Under the pieces are notes generated by a model, which saw only the letters and a list, made by a program, of their open reading frames with translations, did no database searches and was not told where the DNA came from. This document shows, one piece after another, positions 6,392 through 64,000 of a stretch of DNA of 64,000 bases. The position numbers were made by a program, and so were the translations under genes. The DNA comes from a virus. The stretch's first letter is position 1; each line of letters starts with the position of its first letter. Location: IMG/VR virus record IMGVR_UViG_3300045971_000385, positions 1 through 64,000 of that record, one strand, 5' to 3'.

Positions 6392-6862
6392 ATGTTACAA
6401 AATATCGCTCACATTGCTTCTCTCCCATATCGCCCAAATGATTCCATCATCATGGAAATGCTGCGTCGCATCGAACGCAAATTACCAAAAGGCATGAAAG
6501 TTGATAGCAAGAATTTTCAGCAATCTGTTTTGGATGCTGGAAAAGCTGTTGATGCAGAAGGTGACATGGCAATTCTTTCTTTAGTTCGCCAAATTTCTGC
6601 TCCTGAACCAGAAAAAGTGTTGAAGATTAAATCTTCTCCTAAAGGTGCTCGTATTGAAATCGCGGCTGCTGATGGAGTTCGTTATTCTTTCGGCCCAATT
6701 TGGAATGTTTCTGTCAACAAAGGCAAAGGTATTGCATATGCTGAATGCAATCGCAACAAATTGAATCATCAAGGGTTGATGATGGGTATCAAAGATCCAG
6801 CAGATATGGATGTCCAAGTATTGGGTAAAGCAATTGCTGAAGCTTTAGTTATTCAGGGCTGA
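6392..6862 (+). CDS. Early protein, unknown
   Basis: 156 residues, SD AAAGGAATT. The N-terminal half is helical and basic (RRIERKLPKGMKV). The C-terminal half has alternating hydrophobic residues suggesting beta strands, including a YSFGPIWNVSV stretch. Codon use is cleaner than in its small neighbours, with C-ending Arg and His codons, which hints at high expression. No motif recognised. Confidence 0.72.
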   Translation: MLQNIAHIASLPYRPNDSIIMEMLRRIERKLPKGMKVDSKNFQQSVLDAGKAVDAEGDMAILSLVRQISAPEPEKVLKIKSSPKGARIEIAAADGVRYSFGPIWNVSVNKGKGIAYAECNRNKLNHQGLMMGIKDPADMDVQVLGKAIAEALVIQG

Positions 6863-7984: not shown

Positions 7985-7992
7985 TATTTATA
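7985..7992 (-). promoter_or_regulatory. T4-type late promoter box (TATAAATA, minus strand)
   Basis: TATTTATA on the plus strand reads TATAAATA on the minus strand, 95 bases before the ATG at 7890. The distance is longer than at the other late promoters here, so support is moderate. Confidence 0.45.
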
Positions 7993-8058: not shown

Positions 8059-8787
8059 ATGATTCTTATAATTTGTATGGCTGGCTTAAACACTAGATTC
8101 CATGATGTTGGAGTTGACTGCCCAAAATATTTGTTACCATGGGGTAACGAATCTATTATAACTGAAATTCTTGAACAATTAACAAAGGATTATAATTTTA
8201 AAGAAATTATGCTCCTAGCTAATAAACGAGACAGTTACTTCAAACATAAACTTCGATTAGCAACAGATAAATTTGGTGTGAATATCTACTATATTGGTGA
8301 TACACACGGTCAAGCTGAGACTGCAGCAATTGCAGCAAAAATGACAGAATTGGATTGCCCGATATTATTTCATAATGCAGACACTATCATCTCTGATAGA
8401 AGTATGAAGGGTATACAAGAATTTCTAATTAGAAATGACGCTTACATTGATACATTCTATGCTGATAATCCTGCATATTGCTATGTAAATGTTGATCATG
8501 AAAAGATAATATCAATAGATGAAAAGAAAACTATTACTGGAATAGCAAGTTCGGGTTTATATGGTTTTAAGTCGGCTAAAGAATATCTTAAAGCATATGA
8601 TCAGACTGTTAAATTTGCTTCTTCTGAAACATATATTTCAGATGTGTTACAAACAATACTTAAAAATGGCGGGTCAATTGCTATTAATGAAAGAATTCAC
8701 AGTCAATCATTTTTTAAAAATAGGGCAGCCACTAAAGTAATAGGTAGTCCTAAAGAATACTGGGAAGCAATAAATGAAATCAACTAA
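8059..8787 (+). CDS. Sugar-phosphate nucleotidyltransferase-like protein
   Basis: 242 residues, GT-A/nucleotidyltransferase fold. The N-terminus gives the signature MAGLNTRF (7-14, matching G-x-G-x-R) and CPKYLLP (21-27, Lys contacting phosphate). GQAETAA (84-90) and the metal-binding Asp in FHNADT (Asp 108) follow. Such enzymes join a sugar 1-phosphate to an NTP, giving an NDP-sugar and PPi in the cytoplasm. 242 residues is the compact form seen in capsule and lipopolysaccharide loci, where it often pairs with an APH-like kinase, as here (14-base overlap). In this context an activated cyclitol is the likely product, by inference. It heads the cassette. Confidence 0.85.
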   Translation: MILIICMAGLNTRFHDVGVDCPKYLLPWGNESIITEILEQLTKDYNFKEIMLLANKRDSYFKHKLRLATDKFGVNIYYIGDTHGQAETAAIAAKMTELDCPILFHNADTIISDRSMKGIQEFLIRNDAYIDTFYADNPAYCYVNVDHEKIISIDEKKTITGIASSGLYGFKSAKEYLKAYDQTVKFASSETYISDVLQTILKNGGSIAINERIHSQSFFKNRAATKVIGSPKEYWEAINEIN

Positions 8788-9760
8788 ACTAAAAGGTGGA
8801 TCACTCAGTGCAACATGGCTGTGTGAGTCTCGTAATTTAAAATTTGTTAGGAAATCCGTAAAATTAAATGAGAATAGAGAATATGGATTTATGAGATGGT
8901 ATTCGCAATTAAAAAAGATGCAACGATTATACACTGCACACCCAAAATTGCTTCCTAAAATATTAAAAGTTGCATATCAAGATGATACTGCGTATTTCGA
9001 TATGGAATACTTAGAAGGATTTACAGATGTTAAGAGTCTCTTGAGAGACGATTCACTTTCACCAACTCAGCTTCATCAAATGCATGATGCATTATGGAGA
9101 GCATTTGACACAATACATGCACGCGAAATGGTTCCACTACCATCAAGTATGAGACTGTATTATAAGGAAGAAGTAAAACAGAAACTTGATGACGCAATGC
9201 TCAATAAGGAATTTGCTGAGTTTGCAAACATGCAGTCATTTTATTATATGGGTCAAGAAGTTTTTAATATCAGCAATTATTTAGAACTACTAAATGGATT
9301 TTTAAATTTATCATTAATAGCAACTGAAGAAACGATTCACGGTAATCCCACATTAGAAAATGTTATGTATTCGCCATACGAAAATAGAGTGGTGTTTATC
9401 GATCTTTATGAAGAAAGTATTATTGATTCTAAGTTATTAGATTATGCACAAGTACTCCAATGTTCAAGCAGCAGATATGGAATTATTAATGACGGTGATG
9501 TTTTTATAGATGGAGATAATCAAGATCATTTATATTTAGACCACAATTCTAAAATTTCCGATTCATTGTTAATATTTAATACTTATTTTGTTGGTGAATT
9601 ACACAGACGAAATGTTGATATGAAACTTGTTCGCGCTTTAGAAGCTACGCAATTTATACGAATGTTGCCTTTTAAAATTCTAGCTGGTGATATTGATAAA
9701 GCAAAATTCTTTTATGTTCATGCATGCAAATTATTAGGAGACATTTTTGATGTTGAATGA
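8774..9760 (+). CDS. APH/choline-kinase-like phosphotransferase with altered catalytic loop
   Basis: 328 residues. The N-lobe has LKFVRKS (Lys candidates 23-30). The hinge region MEYLEGFTD (77-85) is typical of aminoglycoside phosphotransferase and choline kinase folds. The catalytic loop is IHGNPTLENVMY: His 189, Asn 196, but Asn 191 where the family has the catalytic Asp (HGDxxxxN). The metal-binding Asp 210 (FIDLYEE) is present. So the fold is clear while the catalytic base is changed. These proteins normally phosphorylate small alcohols or sugars. It overlaps both neighbours and lies between the nucleotidyltransferase and the cyclase, suggesting phosphorylation of the cyclitol or a scaffolding role. 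Confidence 0.8.
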   Translation: MKSTKLKGGSLSATWLCESRNLKFVRKSVKLNENREYGFMRWYSQLKKMQRLYTAHPKLLPKILKVAYQDDTAYFDMEYLEGFTDVKSLLRDDSLSPTQLHQMHDALWRAFDTIHAREMVPLPSSMRLYYKEEVKQKLDDAMLNKEFAEFANMQSFYYMGQEVFNISNYLELLNGFLNLSLIATEETIHGNPTLENVMYSPYENRVVFIDLYEESIIDSKLLDYAQVLQCSSSRYGIINDGDVFIDGDNQDHLYLDHNSKISDSLLIFNTYFVGELHRRNVDMKLVRALEATQFIRMLPFKILAGDIDKAKFFYVHACKLLGDIFDVE

Positions 9761-10889
9761 AATAAACAATTTTAAGAAGACATGGAATGTCAAAGCAGAA
9801 TTGCCTATTGAATTTAATGTTCAATATTCCAGCAATATTTTTAATACCAATAACCATGACTTGATAAGCTATGGGGATTCCGCACGCCGCATTGTTGTCA
9901 TAGATAAAAATGTGTATGACTTATATGGCAATCAAATGGAGACATACTTCTCAACATTGAAAGTTGAACTACTTCTTTATGTTGTAGATGTATCTGAGGA
10001 AACAAAGAACTGGGAAAATACAGATAACATACTTAAATTTTTCGAGAAGAGCGGAATTTTAAGAAGGGCTGAACCAGTAATAGCAATTGGTGGTGGCGTA
10101 TTATTGGATCTTGTTGGTTTTTGCGCTAGCATTTATCGACGAGGAATTCCATACATAAAAATTCCAACAACATTATTATCTATTGTTGATGCATCAGTCG
10201 GCGTAAAGGTCGGTGCTAATCATTTGGGCAGGCGTAATAGAATTGGTGCATACTATCCGCCAATAGTTTCTTTATTAGATAAAAAGTTTATCAATACTCA
10301 AAACACTAGAGAGATTGTTAATGGTATTGCTGAAATTTTTAAACTTGCTCTTATTAAAGATGCTGAATTGTTTTCATTGTTGGAAGAAAATTATGAACAG
10401 CTAATTCAAGAGAAGTTTCAATATGGTGCTGTGCCAGTTAGAGTTATTAATCTTGCTATTAATGGAATGATTGAAGAGCTTGCTCCTAATTTATGGGAGA
10501 AGAAGTTAGATAGATGTGTCGACTTCGGACATTCATTCAGTCCAGTAATTGAAATGAAAAATGTAACAGAATTATGTCATGGAGAAGCTGTAGTATTAGA
10601 TTGTTTACTGAGCTCGTGTATAGCATATTCAAAGCAATTCATAACCATTAATACACTACAGCGAATTTTTGATACTGCTAAGAATCTACAGCTTCAAACA
10701 TATCATGAAGATTTTACTAACTTTGATCTGCTAAAGTCAGCTTTATCTGATACCATGAAACATAGAAATAATAATCAATATCTTCCATTGCCTATTGGTA
10801 TAGGCAATTATGTAATCGCTAATGATGTTACAGATAAACAAATTTTAGAAGGCATACATTACTACAAAGGAATGAATAATGTCCAGTAA
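9750..10889 (+). CDS. Sedoheptulose 7-phosphate cyclase, 2-epi-5-epi-valiolone synthase type
   Basis: 379 residues from ATG 9750 (SD TAGGAG; an in-frame TTG precedes it). Dehydroquinate-synthase superfamily. NAD-binding AIGGGVLLDLVG near 112-124, RRGIPYIKIPTTLLSIVDASVG near 130-151, and zinc ligands Glu in NGIAEIFK (about 195), His in DFGHSFSP (about 261) and His in CHGEAV (about 277). RRNRIGAYYPP and DFGHSFSPVIEM are the motif forms of C7-cyclitol synthases; true AroB proteins have a LNxGHTxGHAIE form instead. Family members cyclise sedoheptulose 7-phosphate to 2-epi-5-epi-valiolone, the entry to acarbose and validamycin-type cyclitols. It overlaps the kinase and the SDR gene, so it is one operon. 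Confidence 0.82.
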   Translation: MLNEINNFKKTWNVKAELPIEFNVQYSSNIFNTNNHDLISYGDSARRIVVIDKNVYDLYGNQMETYFSTLKVELLLYVVDVSEETKNWENTDNILKFFEKSGILRRAEPVIAIGGGVLLDLVGFCASIYRRGIPYIKIPTTLLSIVDASVGVKVGANHLGRRNRIGAYYPPIVSLLDKKFINTQNTREIVNGIAEIFKLALIKDAELFSLLEENYEQLIQEKFQYGAVPVRVINLAINGMIEELAPNLWEKKLDRCVDFGHSFSPVIEMKNVTELCHGEAVVLDCLLSSCIAYSKQFITINTLQRIFDTAKNLQLQTYHEDFTNFDLLKSALSDTMKHRNNNQYLPLPIGIGNYVIANDVTDKQILEGIHYYKGMNNVQ

Positions 10890-11556
10890 ATTAGCAGTAG
10901 TAACTGGTGCAAGCCGCGGGGTTGGATATGCTGTAGCAGAAAGTCTATTAAAGCAAGGCTGGATTGTTATAGGCTTATCTAGAAGCCCATGCCATCTTGA
11001 TATAGAATATCCTAAGTTTGTTCCAATTCAATGCAACATAACAGAAAAGACAGATGTGAAGCGTGCATTTATGAAACTAGAAAATGCTAAAATAGATCTT
11101 CTAGTAAATTGTGCATCAATTTTTAATATGCAACCATTTGGGGTATCTGCAGATACGCACAGTATCATTAATACAAACGTAATTGGAACTATTGATGTGA
11201 CTGGTGAAGCTCTATCATTAATGAATACTAATAGCAGAATAATCTTCATCAATTCTGTTGCGGGTTTAGAAGAGCTAGAAAATCAAGCTTTGTATTGCGC
11301 ATCTAAGTGGGCAATAACAGGTTTTGCAGGTGTTCTGGGTAAAGAACTCAGATCTAAAAAAATTAAAGTAACAAGCATTCATCCAGGTGGAATTAATACT
11401 TCTTTATGGAATGAAGGAAATCCATATCCAGTGGGAGATGTTACTAAAGCACTTCAAACTTCGGATATAGTGGATGCAATAAATTATATCCTGTCATGTC
11501 CTGACTATGTTGAAGTTAAAACTCTTAAATTATTTCCCGATATTGAGTGGCATTAA
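10879..11556 (+). CDS. Short-chain dehydrogenase/reductase
   Basis: 225 residues, SD AAGGAATG inside the cyclase end (11-base overlap). Classical SDR layout: cofactor loop TGASRGVG (9-16), NCAS near 75, catalytic Ser in INSVAGLE near 130, and YCASK (Tyr/Lys pair near 142-146). These enzymes oxidise or reduce an alcohol or ketone with NAD(P). Arg after the TGAS motif favours NADP, but that is a weak cue. In the cassette it would suit reduction or oxidation of the cyclitol ketone, as SDR enzymes do in C7-cyclitol pathways. Length is slightly short of the usual 250. Confidence 0.85.
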   Translation: MSSKLAVVTGASRGVGYAVAESLLKQGWIVIGLSRSPCHLDIEYPKFVPIQCNITEKTDVKRAFMKLENAKIDLLVNCASIFNMQPFGVSADTHSIINTNVIGTIDVTGEALSLMNTNSRIIFINSVAGLEELENQALYCASKWAITGFAGVLGKELRSKKIKVTSIHPGGINTSLWNEGNPYPVGDVTKALQTSDIVDAINYILSCPDYVEVKTLKLFPDIEWH

Positions 11557-11593: not shown

Positions 11594-12151
11594 ATGACAA
11601 TATTTTTCACATCAGATCTCCATTACCACCACAAGAATGTAATTCGTTTTTGCAATCGCCCATATTCTTCTGTTGAGGAAATGAATAAGGCTTTAATCGA
11701 CAATCATAATAAAGTTGTCGGTCATGATGACACAACTTATTTCTTAGGTGACTTATTTTTCTGTCAAATGGGAGAAGCAATTTCAATCATGAGCAGACTG
11801 AACGGTAAGAAGAGATTAATCCTTGGCAATCATGACAAGGTTATTCGAAATAATAAATTATTACAAAATCAATTTGAAATAATCTATCAAGATTTATATC
11901 AAGAAACTATTGATGGGATACATGTCGTGATGTGTCACTATCCATTACTATCTTGGAATAAAGCATCTCATGGGGCATTCATGCTATATGGACATGCGCA
12001 TAATAATATTCCATTTGATCCTCTATATCGAAGATTGGATATCGGAGTAGATGCACAAAATTATGCACCTATATCGTGGGAAGAAATAAAGCGTAAGCTT
12101 GAAAAAGTCACTCCTAAAGATTCTCGTGGAAGAGAATCAGGAGAGTATTGA
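11594..12151 (+). CDS. Calcineurin-like metallophosphoesterase
   Basis: 185 residues. The five metallophosphoesterase blocks are visible: SDLHYHH (Asp 8, His 10), FLGDLFF, LGNHD, MCHYPLLSW and YGHAHNN, so the two-metal centre is complete. The family removes phosphate from nucleotides, nucleic acids or small phosphates; this short form is common in phages and bacteria. No SD is visible before the ATG, and a promoter -10 box ends 6 bases upstream, so translation may be leaderless. It follows the cyclitol cassette and could remove a phosphate there, but its own promoter argues for independent use. The end overlaps the Nudix gene on the other strand by 15 bases. Confidence 0.88.
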   Translation: MTIFFTSDLHYHHKNVIRFCNRPYSSVEEMNKALIDNHNKVVGHDDTTYFLGDLFFCQMGEAISIMSRLNGKKRLILGNHDKVIRNNKLLQNQFEIIYQDLYQETIDGIHVVMCHYPLLSWNKASHGAFMLYGHAHNNIPFDPLYRRLDIGVDAQNYAPISWEEIKRKLEKVTPKDSRGRESGEY

Positions 12152-14168: not shown

Positions 14169-14176
14169 TATTTATA
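14169..14176 (-). promoter_or_regulatory. T4-type late promoter (TATAAATA, minus strand)
   Basis: Exact TATAAATA on the minus strand, 46 bases before the first gene (ATG 14122) of the four-gene operon ending at 12137. In T4 this box is read by the gp55 sigma factor with gp33 and gp45. Confidence 0.8.
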
Positions 14177-21033: not shown

Positions 21034-21345
21034 ATGCTGTTATCAAGAATACAAATTGCTAATGATATTGGAAACATGAAAGACAAGATTACAGCTTGCA
21101 TCTTTCCACCATTTACAGCAAATTTAGAATTTACTTATCATTTTTACGATAATGTACCCATAGAAGAAGACAATTTTAGCAAAATTTTATTCACTTATAT
21201 TGAATTTGCTATTGGTGATGGGACCCTTGCCGATTTTATTGCTCAACTAAGTCGTATTCAATCTGTTATACCTGGCGATGCACAAATAACCACAGTTAAT
21301 GGTTATGAAATGGTTAAAATTATCTTCTCGAAAGAATATAAATGA
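21034..21345 (+). CDS. Unknown protein
   Basis: 103 residues, ATGA-coupled to the first DnaJ-like gene. Mixed strands and helices, Ile/Phe-rich, no motif identified. Position suggests co-translation with the chaperone genes. Confidence 0.66.
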   Translation: MLLSRIQIANDIGNMKDKITACIFPPFTANLEFTYHFYDNVPIEEDNFSKILFTYIEFAIGDGTLADFIAQLSRIQSVIPGDAQITTVNGYEMVKIIFSKEYK

Positions 21346-22046
21346 ATGCAAAAGATGCTAGAGATGTTTTAGGTTTAGGTCCTACTGGGAGTCCAGTTGA
21401 AATTAAGAAGGCATATCAGCGTCTTGCAATGATTCATCATCCAGATCGTCCAAATGGAAGTGATATAAAATTTAAAAAGATCAATGAAGCATATAATGTT
21501 TTAAACAATATTTTTAATAACACGTACTATGATAATACGCCTATTATCATGTTGCCTATTTCCATCTTAGAAGCTTTTACTGGTTGTATAAAGACTGTAA
21601 CTATTGATGGCCGTGATGTTGATGTCTGTATCCCAGAGGGATCCTTAAGTAATGATCGCATTGAGTCTTCTGATGCTGTTACAATTATAGTCATGATTCA
21701 TTCTGATTTCACTATTGATTTAGGAACAAATGGTGATAATACTCGTGGTGATGTAACTAAGACTGTTATAGTATCTCCATTCTTAATGATGACTGGCGGA
21801 TTTATAGATGTAGAAATGCTAGATGGTTTTAAAGTTAAAGTTCGTGTACCTGAAGGATTAGCATCTAATTCATTATTAAAAGTGTCTAGACGCGGTTATT
21901 TTAGAGGATATGCTTGTGAAGATCGCGGAGATTGCTATCTTAGAATAGTTCCAGAGATTAAAAAGCTAAATGAATTTACTGACAAAGAGCTTTTCAATTT
22001 TGAACAAGCTTTAATGATCGCCAGAACCGGCGGACTAGATGAATAG
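21342..22046 (+). CDS. DnaJ-like co-chaperone (first of two)
   Basis: 234 residues. J domain at about 1-57 with the HPD motif ([10 protein letters not shown]). A short C-terminal substrate-binding region follows, recognisable by [15 protein letters not shown] and IPEGSL (CTD-I) and a second [21 protein letters not shown] block (CTD-II). No Gly/Phe-rich linker or zinc finger. It would recruit and stimulate host DnaK through the HPD loop. Overlaps its paralogue by 8 bases. The family call is firm; the client is unknown. Confidence 0.88.
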
Positions 22047-22932
22047 TTTTGAAGCGAGAAAAATATTAAATGTAGATAAAAATGCTACTGATGAAGAGCT
22101 AAAGAAAGCATATCGTCGATGCGCAATGGACTTCCATCCCGATAGACCAAATGGGGATGCAGTAAAATTTAGAAATGCAAAAGGTGCATATGATTTTCTT
22201 TTAGATAATAAAGATGTAAAAGAAGAAGCACAATATTCTTGGACTCAAGAAAGTAAACCATCTCCATCACCAGGATTTAAACGTGGCAAACGCCCAAAGC
22301 TAGATGATTTAGATGATAGTGGATGGATGGGCAGTGGCGATTTCGCAAAGAGCTACAAGTCCAATAGTCAAGGATTTAATGCACCAAGTACCTGTAAAGA
22401 ATATGTAGACATTTCATTAGATGAAGCATTTCGTGGTACAAATTTTAAGAAAACCGAAATATTAGATTCAAATGGATCTAACATTATAATCAATATTCCA
22501 CGTGGGGTAAAGGAAGGTGATTATTTATCTGAAGTTGTAGTTGGCCGTAATGGTCATATGTCTCAGACTAAATTTATGTTCTATGCGAGAATAGTAAGTA
22601 GTTTTAATATCACATTCGAGCATGCTAATAAATTGTTAAATGGTGATATTGAAAAAGACTTAGAGATTTCTCCTTTCTTAATGATTGTCGGTGGAACAGT
22701 AACTATTCGTGCAATTGATGACACTATGATTGAGGTTACGATTCCTGCAGGCCTTGGTGCGAATAAATTGCTTAGATTAGAAGGTAAGGGTTATTGGACA
22801 GATGAGACATGTAGGTCGAGGGGTAATTGCTATTTTAGGGTAGTACCAAGAATTAAAAAACTTAATGATATAAGTGCCGATGAAATGAGGGAGTTTCTAG
22901 ATGCAGTTAAAACAAAATATTCTAACATATAA
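22039..22932 (+). CDS. DnaJ-like co-chaperone (second of two)
   Basis: 297 residues. J domain at about 2-55 with HPD ([10 protein letters not shown]), then a Pro/Gly/Lys-rich linker (70-115) that the first copy lacks. CTD-I ([23 protein letters not shown]) and CTD-II ([21 protein letters not shown]) follow. Closest in plan to CbpA-type J proteins without the zinc finger. Tandem paralogue of the preceding gene; both could direct host DnaK to phage head or tail assembly, by inference. Confidence 0.88.
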
Positions 22933-51612: not shown

Positions 51613-53022
51613 ATGAAAAGCTATAAACTTAGTCTTGTTGCATTAAGCGTCGCTTCTGCAATCTTAGTAACTGGTTGTGGAGGTGGAGGTGGAGGTGGAA
51701 CTTCTGGCCCAGTAACTCCCCCAGTAGTCGTTACTCCCGCGCCGATAGTCACACTTTCTTTTGCATCACCAAAAGCTAACGTGGGAACCCCAGATGTTCT
51801 GACTTGGACATCATCAAATGCTACATCTTGTACGGGATCAGATGGTTTGTCTGGATCATTGCTCACAGGAAATTCTACAACAATCACGCCAACAGTTGGT
51901 GGTGTTGCAAAATACACAGTATCTTGCACTGGTGCTGGAGGTAGCACTTCGAAAACCGTGGAACTTGTTACGCCAATCCCAGTTCAGAAAACTTCGTATT
52001 TGAATTTTAAGACAGTTAATCTCCCTGCGCAGACTGCCCCAATTAGTTCTACTTTTGTTGCTAATGAAGCTGTTACTTCTGGAATCGCTTATGGCGACTT
52101 CTTCCAAGATGGAACAATTTCAATGGTCGCTGCAACAAATGTGTTTAATGGGTCTGGAACATTCGGTTCAACTGATGCAGGTAGAATTTATTTCTTTCAT
52201 ACAGATGGCAAAGGTGGTTGGATAGACCAAACTGACAAAATTTTAAGTGCCAGTGATCGCACTGGATGTTTAAGTCCTCGTAAAGTTGTAGTGGCTGATT
52301 TTAATGGTGATGGAAAACCCGATTCATTTATTGTATGTCACGGTATTGATGGTGATATTAAACCTGGATTTTCTCAAGGTGAGCATCCACGATATATCTT
52401 AAGTCAATCAGATGGTACATACAAGAATATTGATGCTGGATTTAATTGTTATTGTCACGGTGCTGCGGCAGCAGATTTTAATGGTGATGGATTCGCTGAT
52501 ATTGTAGTTGCTAGTCCACCGGTTTTAGGTCGTGTTGTTTATCTAAAAAATAATAAAGATGGAACTTTCACGGATTCTCCTTCACTAATACCAGCAAGCA
52601 CATTTAATAAAAGTATTTGGTCAATGGAATTTGTTGATGTGAACAGCGATGGCAAATTTGATTTGGCTATGTATGGATCTGAACACGGTAATGGTACGCC
52701 AGGTGGAATTACCTGGGATTGGCAGCCAACATTCTTTATTAATAGTGGAACAAATATCTTTTCAGATACTATGCAGCAAGTAAAAGCTCCATTTAGTTTA
52801 AATGGTGATGCTTTAGATATTATTGTAGGTAATGGAAAAATTGCTTTCACTAGAGCTGATAATAATCCTACTAAGAAATACCAAGTTCAAATTTTATCTT
52901 ATCCTTCAATGACGCAGCTGAGTGTTACAGATATCGGAGCACTTGATTCCCCTTGGTTCAATCTTTATAACGGGAATATTGTTGGAATGTGGACATACAA
53001 TAATTATTCGATATCTTTCTAA
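51613..53022 (+). CDS. Lipoprotein with FG-GAP/VCBS repeats
   Basis: 469 residues, SD AAAGGATTG. A lipoprotein signal peptide (basic MKSYK, hydrophobic 7-20) ends in the lipobox V-T-G-C with Cys 22, then a Gly/Pro-rich tether. An Ig-like domain spans about 48-115. FG-GAP/VCBS-type repeats with calcium-loop motifs DFNGDGKPD, DFNGDGFAD and DVNSDGKFD (about 228-355) follow. It would be anchored in the host envelope and face the periplasm or outside. The single-gene unit with its own early promoter and terminator looks like a recently gained moron-type gene, possibly a superinfection or envelope factor. Confidence 0.87.
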   Translation: MKSYKLSLVALSVASAILVTGCGGGGGGGTSGPVTPPVVVTPAPIVTLSFASPKANVGTPDVLTWTSSNATSCTGSDGLSGSLLTGNSTTITPTVGGVAKYTVSCTGAGGSTSKTVELVTPIPVQKTSYLNFKTVNLPAQTAPISSTFVANEAVTSGIAYGDFFQDGTISMVAATNVFNGSGTFGSTDAGRIYFFHTDGKGGWIDQTDKILSASDRTGCLSPRKVVVADFNGDGKPDSFIVCHGIDGDIKPGFSQGEHPRYILSQSDGTYKNIDAGFNCYCHGAAAADFNGDGFADIVVASPPVLGRVVYLKNNKDGTFTDSPSLIPASTFNKSIWSMEFVDVNSDGKFDLAMYGSEHGNGTPGGITWDWQPTFFINSGTNIFSDTMQQVKAPFSLNGDALDIIVGNGKIAFTRADNNPTKKYQVQILSYPSMTQLSVTDIGALDSPWFNLYNGNIVGMWTYNNYSISF

Positions 53023-53035
53023 GATATTATTTTAA

Positions 53036-53061
53036 AATAAAGGACCTTCGGGTCCTTTATT
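53036..53061 (+). terminator. Bidirectional terminator between convergent genes
   Basis: AATAAAGGACC (53036-53046), TTCG tetraloop, GGTCCTTTATT (53051-53061) followed by TTT. The left arm starts with A-rich sequence, giving a T-run on the other strand. It overlaps the stop of the minus-strand gene at 53057. Confidence 0.9.
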
Positions 53062-55462
53062 TTTGGTCCGGTAATTGAGGTCTTAAATATCCTTCATATG
53101 AATGACAGTGTTTGTTTCTCCACCAAGAAGCAGTATCACAATAAATTGCTTTATACAACTTCCAATCATATTTGTCACTGGGTAATAAATTAAAAGTATC
53201 TCTAACGAATACGGTATCTATCACACGATCTAATTCTGAAGAACACATATCATCATCTGTTCCAAATAATTCTTCATTTATATTTTGCCTAAATGCGTTA
53301 TATAAAACCACGTGACCATCAGCATTATGATTATTAAGTGCGTGCATTTTCAACAACTCTAATGTTACGTCATTAAAAATAGTTTTAAATTTTGAAATAT
53401 GCGATTTATTAATGAAAAACATATGGTCTCCCATTCCATATATTTCAGAATGTCTGAACTGATTAGTTTTAAATGGCATTTCGGATATTAAACATTTTTT
53501 AATATCTTCCTTACTTGTGCACCAATAAAATCCATCAGGTCTAACTATCACATACTTATTATAATCATTTGGCACATTATAGAAAATTTGCTGCCATAAA
53601 TAAACCATCCTACAGAAATTATTGATAGCTGATCCATCAGCATACACATTTCCAAATTCTGAATCCTTAATTACAAATGATTGCTTTATTCCAGCTTTCT
53701 TAATATAGTCATCCATTTTTTCTTGTCCCGCAGACTCCCAAGTTACTAAATAACGATCTGCTTCCCCCCAAATGGGTAATGACAATAAAGCAGCATCGTA
53801 ATTTCTTAACATTCCAGAAATAACAACAGCAACTTTTTCGCTGTTAATACTCGTGTTCTTGACACCAACTTGTATATTCCATTTATCATTCATCGGCTCG
53901 CCATTATGATGAACAATAGCATTTATTCTTTTTGCTTCTTCCCAATACCAAGAATGCTTAGCACACAATTCAATAGAATTTTCTTCGCCACTTTCGAATC
54001 TATGAATATCAAAACTATTTAAACAATTTGGTGTAGGTAAAATATCTTTCACTATTGAATTAGTATATTCAAATAACCATTTATGAATATCGCCCTCAAC
54101 AATTTTGCTTTTCCAATTGTTAAACATATCTTCAGTTATTAATTTTTCAATATTTTCTTGAGAAGATAAAAATAAAAAATCGCCCAATGATTGATTATTA
54201 ATATCAGACCAAGCTGTCAATAATGAAGAATTTGAAAAATTATTAAGATCGGTTTTAAATCCTGAAAATGTATCGACGTCATTAACGAAAATATCCGGTC
54301 TAACTATCATTATCCAATCATAATGTTTCTTGGATTCCTTTATTAATTTAATACCATTAATCCACCGATTAATCATTTCTAAACCATAAGCTTTTGCCTC
54401 ACCTAATTTTTCATCCTTTAAGTTACCTAAACTGATATTCACTGGTATTACAGGTAAAAGATCTTCCTTTATTTTGTCTAAATTAATATTTTGAAATACA
54501 TCTACATTTAATCGTTTATTTAATACGTGAGATGTATCCCAAGTACTAAAGTAAACGTCAACATCTGGATCATCTAAAAACTTCATAGTTTTTCTGCAAG
54601 TTTTAAATGTCCTATATTCGCCAGAAATTAAAATTGCTACTCTAAATGTGTTTTCATATCTTTTAAAGAATCCTGAATCTCTGAGACTAAGAGCATCATT
54701 TACTATTTTTTCACCCCAAGCCGCAATTGGCCCATTAGTATCATTAAACTTTTCAACCCAATTTACTATTCCACAATCTCGCCATACGTCTTCAAGCTGC
54801 CTAACAGTCGCCCACGAATCACCATCTTTTGCCATCGATCTGCAGAAGGATACTTTCTCCCATTCACAAAGTTGATTTAATTCAAAAAAAATTCCATTAA
54901 TAAATGTCGTCCACCATTTATGCCAATCTAATTCGTCTTCTTGATTTACCCACAGATCCACCGTTAAGGTTTCAGAAAGCTGCTTCATCTTGCCAAATGG
55001 CATTGCAAACATATTATCTTGTAGAAATGGTGTGCTCCCAGAATGCCAAGCCACCCGCATTTCATTTTCTTTTATATCTAATAATGAATTCAAATTGAAA
55101 TTATTCTCTATATTGAAGTACAGGTCTGGCCTCATCACTAGAACATAGTCGTATTCAATGCCAGAATTTTTGATCATCGCAAATCCCGACAGCCATCTAT
55201 GAATCATTTTGTCGTTGTATCGACGAGATACAAAGCATTCTTCCGGCTCAATCAGAATAGTTGCAGGAATCTTTAGATCATTCCGAACTCCGTCTTCTGT
55301 GATTGTGTCATTTATATCTAAATTTAATCGCTCATTCTTTACTATAGACTTGTCCCACGTGCTGACATATACGTCGACTCGTTCGTCATTAAGAAATGGC
55401 ATTGTCTTTCGACAGATTGGGAAAGTACGATACTCTCCGGAGATTAGGATTGCTATTTTCAT
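53057..55462 (-). CDS. Triple-repeat glycosyltransferase-like protein
   Basis: 801 residues made of three related units. Unit 1 (about 1-270) starts KIAILISGEYRTF, unit 2 (about 274-540) starts RVAILISGEYRTFKTCRKTM, unit 3 (about 541-801) starts VAVVISGMLRNYDAALL. Units 1 and 2 continue with DVDVYxSTWDxS and later VLVMRPDL/IMIVRPDI, a strand pattern seen in GT-A-like surface-glycan proteins. Unit 3 keeps VTWES and VIVRPDG. The RPD tripeptide marks the conserved core. Enzymatic activity is not proven by a clear DxD. Co-transcribed with the 55463 gene (adjacent stop and start). Confidence 0.75.
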   Translation of the reverse strand: MKIAILISGEYRTFPICRKTMPFLNDERVDVYVSTWDKSIVKNERLNLDINDTITEDGVRNDLKIPATILIEPEECFVSRRYNDKMIHRWLSGFAMIKNSGIEYDYVLVMRPDLYFNIENNFNLNSLLDIKENEMRVAWHSGSTPFLQDNMFAMPFGKMKQLSETLTVDLWVNQEDELDWHKWWTTFINGIFFELNQLCEWEKVSFCRSMAKDGDSWATVRQLEDVWRDCGIVNWVEKFNDTNGPIAAWGEKIVNDALSLRDSGFFKRYENTFRVAILISGEYRTFKTCRKTMKFLDDPDVDVYFSTWDTSHVLNKRLNVDVFQNINLDKIKEDLLPVIPVNISLGNLKDEKLGEAKAYGLEMINRWINGIKLIKESKKHYDWIMIVRPDIFVNDVDTFSGFKTDLNNFSNSSLLTAWSDINNQSLGDFLFLSSQENIEKLITEDMFNNWKSKIVEGDIHKWLFEYTNSIVKDILPTPNCLNSFDIHRFESGEENSIELCAKHSWYWEEAKRINAIVHHNGEPMNDKWNIQVGVKNTSINSEKVAVVISGMLRNYDAALLSLPIWGEADRYLVTWESAGQEKMDDYIKKAGIKQSFVIKDSEFGNVYADGSAINNFCRMVYLWQQIFYNVPNDYNKYVIVRPDGFYWCTSKEDIKKCLISEMPFKTNQFRHSEIYGMGDHMFFINKSHISKFKTIFNDVTLELLKMHALNNHNADGHVVLYNAFRQNINEELFGTDDDMCSSELDRVIDTVFVRDTFNLLPSDKYDWKLYKAIYCDTASWWRNKHCHSYEGYLRPQLPDQK

Positions 55463-56053: not shown

Positions 56054-56061
56054 TATTTATA
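56054..56061 (-). promoter_or_regulatory. T4-type late promoter (TATAAATA, minus strand)
   Basis: Exact TATAAATA on the minus strand, 30 bases before ATG 56023. Serves the 55463-56023 and 53057-55462 genes. Confidence 0.78.
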
Positions 56062-62612: not shown

Positions 62613-62924
62613 ATGGCAGCAATTGAATTTAAATATCAAACAATGTTCACCTGCAGTGTTCCTGCAGGTGTTATTGTTGTGAAGGATTTTAGTGAAATTA
62701 TTTCGTCAAATGAAAGATTATCATCAGACGAAATAGTTCAAACTATTAAACTTTCATTTGAAAATGCTGATATACGAGTAGATGATTTAATCATGTCAGC
62801 TGACATGGGGCATTGCGACGTGTATATATCAGGAGAAGATTTTTATATTAGAGTAATTATTAGAGTTCGGGCGAGTTTGGTTGTAGGCGATTTAATTTTC
62901 AAATTAGATGAGTTGGACATTTAA
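62613..62924 (+). CDS. Late protein, unknown
   Basis: 103 residues; ATG 62613 is chosen as the first start after the late box, although the SD (GGTGAT) is weak. Beta-rich, with an IIVRVRASLVVGDLIFKLDELDI end. TAATG links it to the next gene. Role unknown. Confidence 0.68.
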   Translation: MAAIEFKYQTMFTCSVPAGVIVVKDFSEIISSNERLSSDEIVQTIKLSFENADIRVDDLIMSADMGHCDVYISGEDFYIRVIIRVRASLVVGDLIFKLDELDI

Positions 62925-64000
62925 TGCTCGATATTATTTTCATAAGTTATGATGAGGCGAATGCCGATAAAAATTTTGCTACATTACGAAACCGATTTCC
63001 GTATGCGAAAAGAGTTCATGGAGTAAAGGGCATTGCAAATGCGCATCTAGCCGCATCAAAGAAAGCTAATACTAAATTTTTCTATGTCGTTGATGGAGAC
63101 TCAGAAGTATTAAGTACATTTGATTTTTCATTTAAGCCAGAAGTATGGGATGAAAATTATGTACATATTTGGCACGCATTTAATCCAGCTATTGGTATAG
63201 ATTATGGTTATGGTGGTATAAAACTATTCAATAAATCATTCTTTAAAAATATAGATATCAATAATCTAGACTTCTCTACAACACTCACGAGTGATATAAA
63301 AATCATTGATGAGATAGCAAGCATAACTAACTTCAATTCAGATTCGCTTAGAGCTTTTAGAGGGGCTTTTAGAGAAGCAGTAAAATTAACCCTAACTATT
63401 GAAAATAAAAACAAGTCTAAATCAGAAATAGCTGAGGCAAAAGAGAGATTAAAATGCTGGCAAAAACCCAAACATGATTGTAGATTTGAAAAGCTAATTA
63501 TATCGGGCGTGTATCATGGTATAAAAGCTGCATCCAAATCTAATAAAAGTTTTGCCGACGTAATGTACATTAATAATATGGAATCTTTTAATTCCATTAT
63601 TAGAGAATATCATGCAAATGTTTTCGATGATACACTCGACCCAACACCAAGAGAAGGTAATCCTATGAAGCACGAATTTTTCTTTACTGCCAGAATAGCA
63701 GGAATTCTTTATGATCCGTATGTTAAAGAACATTTACCACTTAGCGAATTAAGAGATGCAATTTCTGATGGACAGTTATTAAGTAAAAATTGGCTAGTAG
63801 AAATATTAGTGGATCTTTTAGATAAGAAAACAATAAAACTATCCGAAGGAAAGGAATTAAAAGTTGCTATTCTTGGAGGTTGGCTGGGCACTCTGGCTCT
63901 AATGATTAATGTTAGAGAGCTGCCATTTAAAGTTACAAGTATAGACTTAGATGGAAGAGCAAATACAATCGCAGAAAAATTAAACTACGATTTTAATTTC
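62924..64000 (+). CDS. Glycosyltransferase-methyltransferase fusion (partial, runs off the window)
   Basis: At least 359 residues; the frame stays open to base 64000. N-terminal part is a paralogue of the 50484 gene: IIFISYDEA (4-12), HGVKGIANAH (32-41), VDGDS (56-60) and AFRGAFREAVKL near 145-156. A linker of about 100 residues follows, then ELKVAILGGWLGTLALM near 312-326 and KVTSIDLDGRANTIAEKL near 335-352. These read as motif I and motif II of a Rossmann SAM-dependent methyltransferase. It may glycosylate and then methylate one acceptor. The C-terminus and exact methyltransferase type are outside the window. Confidence 0.78.
   Translation, partial: MLDIIFISYDEANADKNFATLRNRFPYAKRVHGVKGIANAHLAASKKANTKFFYVVDGDSEVLSTFDFSFKPEVWDENYVHIWHAFNPAIGIDYGYGGIKLFNKSFFKNIDINNLDFSTTLTSDIKIIDEIASITNFNSDSLRAFRGAFREAVKLTLTIENKNKSKSEIAEAKERLKCWQKPKHDCRFEKLIISGVYHGIKAASKSNKSFADVMYINNMESFNSIIREYHANVFDDTLDPTPREGNPMKHEFFFTARIAGILYDPYVKEHLPLSELRDAISDGQLLSKNWLVEILVDLLDKKTIKLSEGKELKVAILGGWLGTLALMINVRELPFKVTSIDLDGRANTIAEKLNYDFNF

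Follow-up and report, generated by a model that had tools for sequence, protein, structure and literature searches.

A strictly conserved four-gene phage cassette with an EEVS-like cyclase, probably supplying a C7 carbasugar to glycosyltransferases

What would a phage do with a C7 cyclitol? The chemistry of 2-epi-5-epi-valiolone synthase (EEVS) has so far belonged to bacterial natural products and animal sunscreens. The question is raised by four genes at positions 8059–11556 of the DNA analysed here (the window), which comprises the first 64,000 bases of the 76,717-base IMG/VR viral record IMGVR_UViG_3300045971_000385. The genome is fragmentary; it encodes topoisomerase II subunits and an RNA ligase/tail-fibre attachment protein, and the phage is T4-like. 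The four open reading frames (ORFs) lie on the plus strand and encode, in order, a sugar-phosphate nucleotidyltransferase (8059–8787, 242 residues), a small-molecule kinase-like protein of the APH fold (8774–9760, 328 residues), a predicted EEVS-type sedoheptulose 7-phosphate cyclase (9750–10889, 379 residues from ATG) and a short-chain dehydrogenase/reductase (SDR; 10879–11556, 225 residues). Successive ORFs overlap by 14, 11 and 11 bases; the cyclase could alternatively start at TTG 9747 instead of ATG 9750, giving a second overlap of 14. An initial annotation of this DNA had described just such an operon, with overlaps of 11–14 bases, and its gene identities are borne out by Pfam (NTP_transferase, 3.4e-13, above cut-off; DHQ_synthase, 7e-33, with DHQS_C, 4e-20; adh_short, 1.7e-37) and, for the kinase, by a structural match to APH(4)-Ia. 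We propose, with moderate confidence, that these phage genes form a module for making a C7 cyclitol (carbasugar), which is passed on to glycosyltransferases.

At least 55 distinct viral cassettes from uncultured aquatic phages, recovered by pattern-based scans of collections of metagenomic contigs, share the identical four-gene order. Whether run with the cyclase, the kinase or the nucleotidyltransferase, the scans retrieve this set of four with its order unchanged. Among 46 viral representatives with distinct kinases, the window included, the unit is complete and adjacent in 40 and runs off the contig in six, and the nucleotidyltransferase scan added 72 loci, 60 of them complete and 12 truncated where the available sequence stops; incomplete cassettes occur only at contig ends. 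Distinct cyclase–kinase pairs number 55, not counting the window and a bacterial relative (locus L032) discussed below. This recurrence is far beyond chance. All four genes are under purifying selection, with dN/dS values of 0.02–0.18 in nine close pairs and a value of 0.39 for one swapped SDR.

Searches by cyclase and by kinase found no member of the cassette among 50,697 GenBank phage records, in which the cyclase matches are below 31% identity and the annotated ones are 3-dehydroquinate synthase (AroB). In the literature searched we found nothing relevant on phage EEVS or on C7 cyclitols in polysaccharides, and no pathway of this kind reported for a virus, as the initial annotation had supposed. 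Here EEVS-type chemistry would belong to a strictly conserved viral module that the searched GenBank phage records lack. In bacteria, a single Balneolaceae metagenome-assembled genome (MAG) matched the kinase profile when 196 genomes from its class were scanned, and across 395 genomes of its phylum the profile matched that MAG and one distant nucleotidyltransferase–kinase fusion. The scan of genome contigs relied on exact peptide patterns, so that absence elsewhere in bacteria is not demonstrated.

Is the cyclase really of the C7 type? The best match in the PDB is ValA (4p53), with 309 bits, which outscores DDGS (208 bits) by 100 bits; AroB reaches at most 127 and DOIS 80. All phage cyclases cluster together (support 100/100) in a tree of 43 sequences, with the Balneolaceae cyclase joining them (100/100). 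Together these nest with ValA, DDGS and bacterial sedoheptulose-7-phosphate cyclases, leaving AroB and its kin outside (100/98). Some branches are long, and the tree does not fix how ValA, DDGS, the rhizobial cyclases and the phage group branch relative to one another; DDGS makes up a separate group of its own. The tree was built from references other than EVS, DOIS and aminoDHQS, and the EEVS-like class as used here is not separated from EVS. The metal ligands Glu, His and His are intact in 21 of 21 phage cyclases. The motifs RRNRIGAYYPP and DFGHSFSPVIEM, which had been put forward as C7 forms distinct from those of AroB, are present and are conserved among relatives.

At the sites that discriminate EEVS from DDGS, which we take to be Asp281 and His360 and which match our alignment with an offset of six, all 21 phage cyclases carry Asp and His, as does ValA; DDGS carries Ala and Thr. 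Two such fingerprint sites tell the two enzymes apart (PMC4426668). The phage enzyme lacks both marks of the DDGS of the mycosporine pathway, namely the Ala and Thr and a place in the group of cyanobacterial DDGS. An ordinary AroB, aiding aromatic amino-acid synthesis in the host, is a reading to which we give next to no credence. The top NCBIfam model is indeed aroB, but its score of 213 bits is far under the curated cut-off of 305, the tree places AroB outside, and the Asn of AroB and the second His of its GHxxGH motif are replaced by Asp and Pro, the Pro in 21 of 21 phage cyclases. The genome of the Balneolaceae relative, moreover, has a separate AroB of its own. By score, tree and active-site residues, then, the protein is supported as an EEVS-like sedoheptulose-7-phosphate cyclase, its catalysis being predicted, in keeping with what had been claimed for it.

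The two flanking enzymes of the cassette have their expected residues in place. The nucleotidyltransferase carries the signature G-x-x-x-R ... PK and the metal-binding Asp, with G9, R13, P22, K23 and D108 invariant across 16 homologues. From its sequence the SDR meets the classical definition of its family, with the cofactor Gly motif (G10, G14, G16) and the catalytic Ser126, Tyr139 and Lys143 of the Ser-Tyr-x-x-x-Lys set all intact and invariant in the alignment; it also has a C-terminal EWH motif. Two cassettes, L047 and L048, are 96–97% identical in nucleotidyltransferase, kinase and cyclase, and just 59% identical in the SDR. The pattern looks like an exchange of the reductase, which may alter the stereochemistry of the product.

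Observation gives us the enzyme classes and the conserved unit, and from these we infer each catalytic step. By ring closure and with loss of phosphate, the cyclase would turn sedoheptulose 7-phosphate from the host into 2-epi-5-epi-valiolone or one of its close epimers. The SDR would then reduce the ketone on the ring, giving a C7 carbasugar polyol, and the APH-fold protein would phosphorylate a ring hydroxyl, probably the pseudo-anomeric one; these two steps may come in either order, and the phosphorylation is the weakest of the series. The nucleotidyltransferase, whose family is clear and whose substrate is presumed, would make the nucleoside diphosphate (NDP)-cyclitol, which a GT-A-fold transferase, to judge from the neighbouring genes, would finally move onto a glycan. 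The product is most likely an NDP-activated C7 carbasugar destined for a glycan, and the likeliest acceptor is a glycan exposed on the virion surface or on that of the infected cell.

Precedents exist for such a route. NDP-valienol occurs in validamycin biosynthesis (PMC3288074), the acarbose scheme provides a precedent for an EEVS-type pathway (PMC6599336), and AmgK and MurU, encoded by neighbouring genes, are a sugar kinase and a nucleotidyltransferase that work one after the other to give an NDP-sugar (PMC5371407). With the validamycin-type systems the cassette shares the fold and sequence of the cyclase, its metal ligands and its Asp and His fingerprint sites, as well as the overall logic of cyclase, reductase, kinase and nucleotidyltransferase. 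It differs in being viral, in consisting of four genes only and in being linked to glycan genes rather than to an antibiotic cluster. Whereas the bacterial cyclase clusters seen have kinases of the ROK family, the phage cassette has an APH-fold kinase. The likeness to AmgK/MurU of peptidoglycan recycling lies in the pairing of kinase and nucleotidyltransferase; that pair acts on other substrates and is accompanied by neither cyclase nor SDR.

Three observations weigh against our proposal. In the cyclase, the Lys that precedes a conserved Asn in ValA and all other cyclases is Arg in all the phage and Balneolaceae enzymes. In the kinase-like protein, the catalytic Asp of the HxD motif is Asn (HGN) in every homologue that covers the site, nearly all of them sharing the motif HGNPTLEN. 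Lastly, no glycosyltransferase stands directly beside the cassette in the window, where the candidate is 42 kb away and distantly related.

The second of these leaves a simple phosphorylation step unproven. It would fit a protein that is no kinase but a nucleotide-binding regulator or scaffold of the cyclase or nucleotidyltransferase, with the donor made in some other way, for example by a host kinase. The sequence gives a weak Pkinase match in Pfam, and the best PDB match of its profile is the pseudokinase domain of JAK2, which likewise has HGN. On the other hand, the AlphaFold model (pLDDT 93.4) has a full-length APH fold, its best structural match being APH(4)-Ia (Z 19.0, root-mean-square deviation 3.2, 263 residues aligned), with choline, glucosamine, methylthioribose and maltose kinases ranking just after. 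The positions for ATP and Mg binding (K27, E36, N196 and D210) do not vary, the gene is under the purifying selection noted above, and active kinase-fold enzymes that lack this Asp exist, SelO being a generally known case. We therefore hold a non-catalytic role to be fairly unlikely. At one locus in a Bacteroidota genome (L107, genome G503) a nucleotidyltransferase-like domain is fused to an APH-like kinase with a canonical HGD, which supports the idea that both activities act in sequence.

Where does the product go? The one bacterial relative found, the Balneolaceae MAG locus L032 (JAGYJQ010000017.1), bears directly on this point. It contains homologues of all four genes, the cyclase being 47% identical, but lies on a bacterial chromosome and has the order kinase–cyclase–SDR–nucleotidyltransferase. 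By their translations its neighbours include an RmlA-type nucleotidyltransferase, a UDP-GlcNAc 2-epimerase, a DegT-type aminotransferase, an ABC transporter, a capsular polysaccharide dehydratase and glycosyltransferases, and no phage genes are seen there; the locus reads as one for a surface polysaccharide. In 35 viral representatives the nucleotidyltransferase is preceded by a protein of which L032, too, has a homologue directly upstream. Modelled with moderate confidence (pLDDT 69), that protein matches GT6 glycosyltransferases by Foldseek and scores Z 9–10 against GT-A glycosyltransferases and cytidylyltransferases, so that the fold is likely of the GT-A type. Most viral cassettes adjoin such a probable GT-A-fold glycosyltransferase. 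Pfam has no family for most of these glycosyltransferase-like neighbours. At another locus (L039) a GDP-mannose-dehydratase-like protein, a DegT aminotransferase and an epimerase adjoin the cassette.

The window itself encodes a candidate glycosyltransferase of 801 residues with three tandem related domains (53057–55462, minus strand), delineated by repeat alignment. This protein and the GT-A-fold neighbour family of the other cassettes have phrog_13607 in common, and profile comparison relates the two at E 6e-5 (probability 65%), from which we infer a tie to the function of the cassette. Adjoining it is a 469-residue protein with FG-GAP repeats (51613–53022), possibly a virion surface or adhesion protein. 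A 453-residue protein at 62924–63997 of the window (extending to 64285 of the record; L114:925–2286) resembles by eye the glycosyltransferase-like phage proteins near another cassette (L075) and has no match in Pfam or PHROG.

Two other destinations can be weighed against these neighbourhoods. To our knowledge every described EEVS product is a small molecule. Acarbose, validamycin and gadusol (PMC4426668) are such products, and a S-adenosylmethionine-dependent methyltransferase is found near many cassettes; the genes could thus yield a free intracellular compound outside any glycan, such as a phospho- or nucleotidylated cyclitol, a gadusol-like sunscreen or an enzyme inhibitor. We regard this as unlikely. 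A nucleotidyltransferase is present in every copy of the cassette, which points to an activated donor, the neighbours resemble glycosyltransferases, the L032 homologues belong to a polysaccharide locus, and among the translations read none is like the fish methyltransferase-oxidoreductase. That the activated cyclitol decorates phage DNA, allowing it to escape host nucleases, seems to us very improbable. DNA glucosylation is known in T4-like phages, but the bacterial relative occurs in its polysaccharide locus without phage genes, the neighbours resemble glycan enzymes, and no gene for DNA-base modification stands beside the cassette in the stretches examined, no systematic search having been made. 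The initial annotation had suggested decoration of a glycan, the virion or DNA; the glycan is favoured by the L032 locus and the glycosyltransferase-like neighbours, while DNA gains no support.

For the glycan-directed carbasugar module, the general form of our proposal is that many uncultured aquatic phages make a C7 carbasugar nucleotide and build it into a glycan on virions or infected cells, and this we offer tentatively, as plausible but somewhat short of likely. Should the product be a building block of glycans, carbasugars would be not just small-molecule inhibitors but structural parts of glycans too. A ring-carbon sugar mimic known from antibiotics would then sit in a glycan, where host glycosidases, receptors or defences may fail to recognise it. 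The four short genes would also be a directly testable source of NDP-carbasugars. Among the glycan islands of cyanophages, that of Synechococcus phage B23 is similar in having a nucleotidyltransferase, glycosyltransferases and two homologues of the GT-A-fold neighbour; a cyclase and the kinase and SDR of the cassette families were not found among the B23 proteins tested.

The cassette occurs in settings that are unrelated to one another: a main T4-like clade, the pair L002 and L005, L075, and the window with its sister phage L120. In the main clade it lies inside a 6.4–10.7 kb stretch bounded by two conserved genes, c0 and c5. This stretch behaves as an accessory island, since Methylophilales phage Melnitz and Stenotrophomonas phage DLP_6 have a single small ORF between their homologues of c1 and c5. 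In L120 the cassette, with related glycosyltransferase-like proteins, lies between two window-type flanking genes, one a homologue of window 6392–6862 (44%) and the other of the metallophosphoesterase at window 11594–12151 (63%), so that the four genes do not occupy an unrelated position in this sister phage. Directly before the L120 cassette (L120:3467–6004) are three ORFs that resemble SGNH/GDSL-type hydrolases, with GDSW, GDSF and GCSW motifs, and that are possible glycan acyl-modifying enzymes.

The main-clade Gp23 is 65% identical to that of cyanophages. Cyanophage-type hosts were nevertheless rejected for this clade, as psbA was not found in 15 records, many of them fragmentary; nor was a transaldolase found in these records, and a supply of sedoheptulose 7-phosphate by the phage was likewise set aside. 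The octamer TATAAATA, which resembles a T4 late promoter, occurs on the minus strand of the window at 7985–7992, 14169–14176 and 56054–56061, in each case 16–102 bases upstream of one of the three minus-strand gene groups, including that of the 801-residue protein, although over the window as a whole it is no more frequent than chance. Finally, two adjacent proteins at window 21342–22932 have DnaJ and DnaJ_C domains, which are unusual for a phage.

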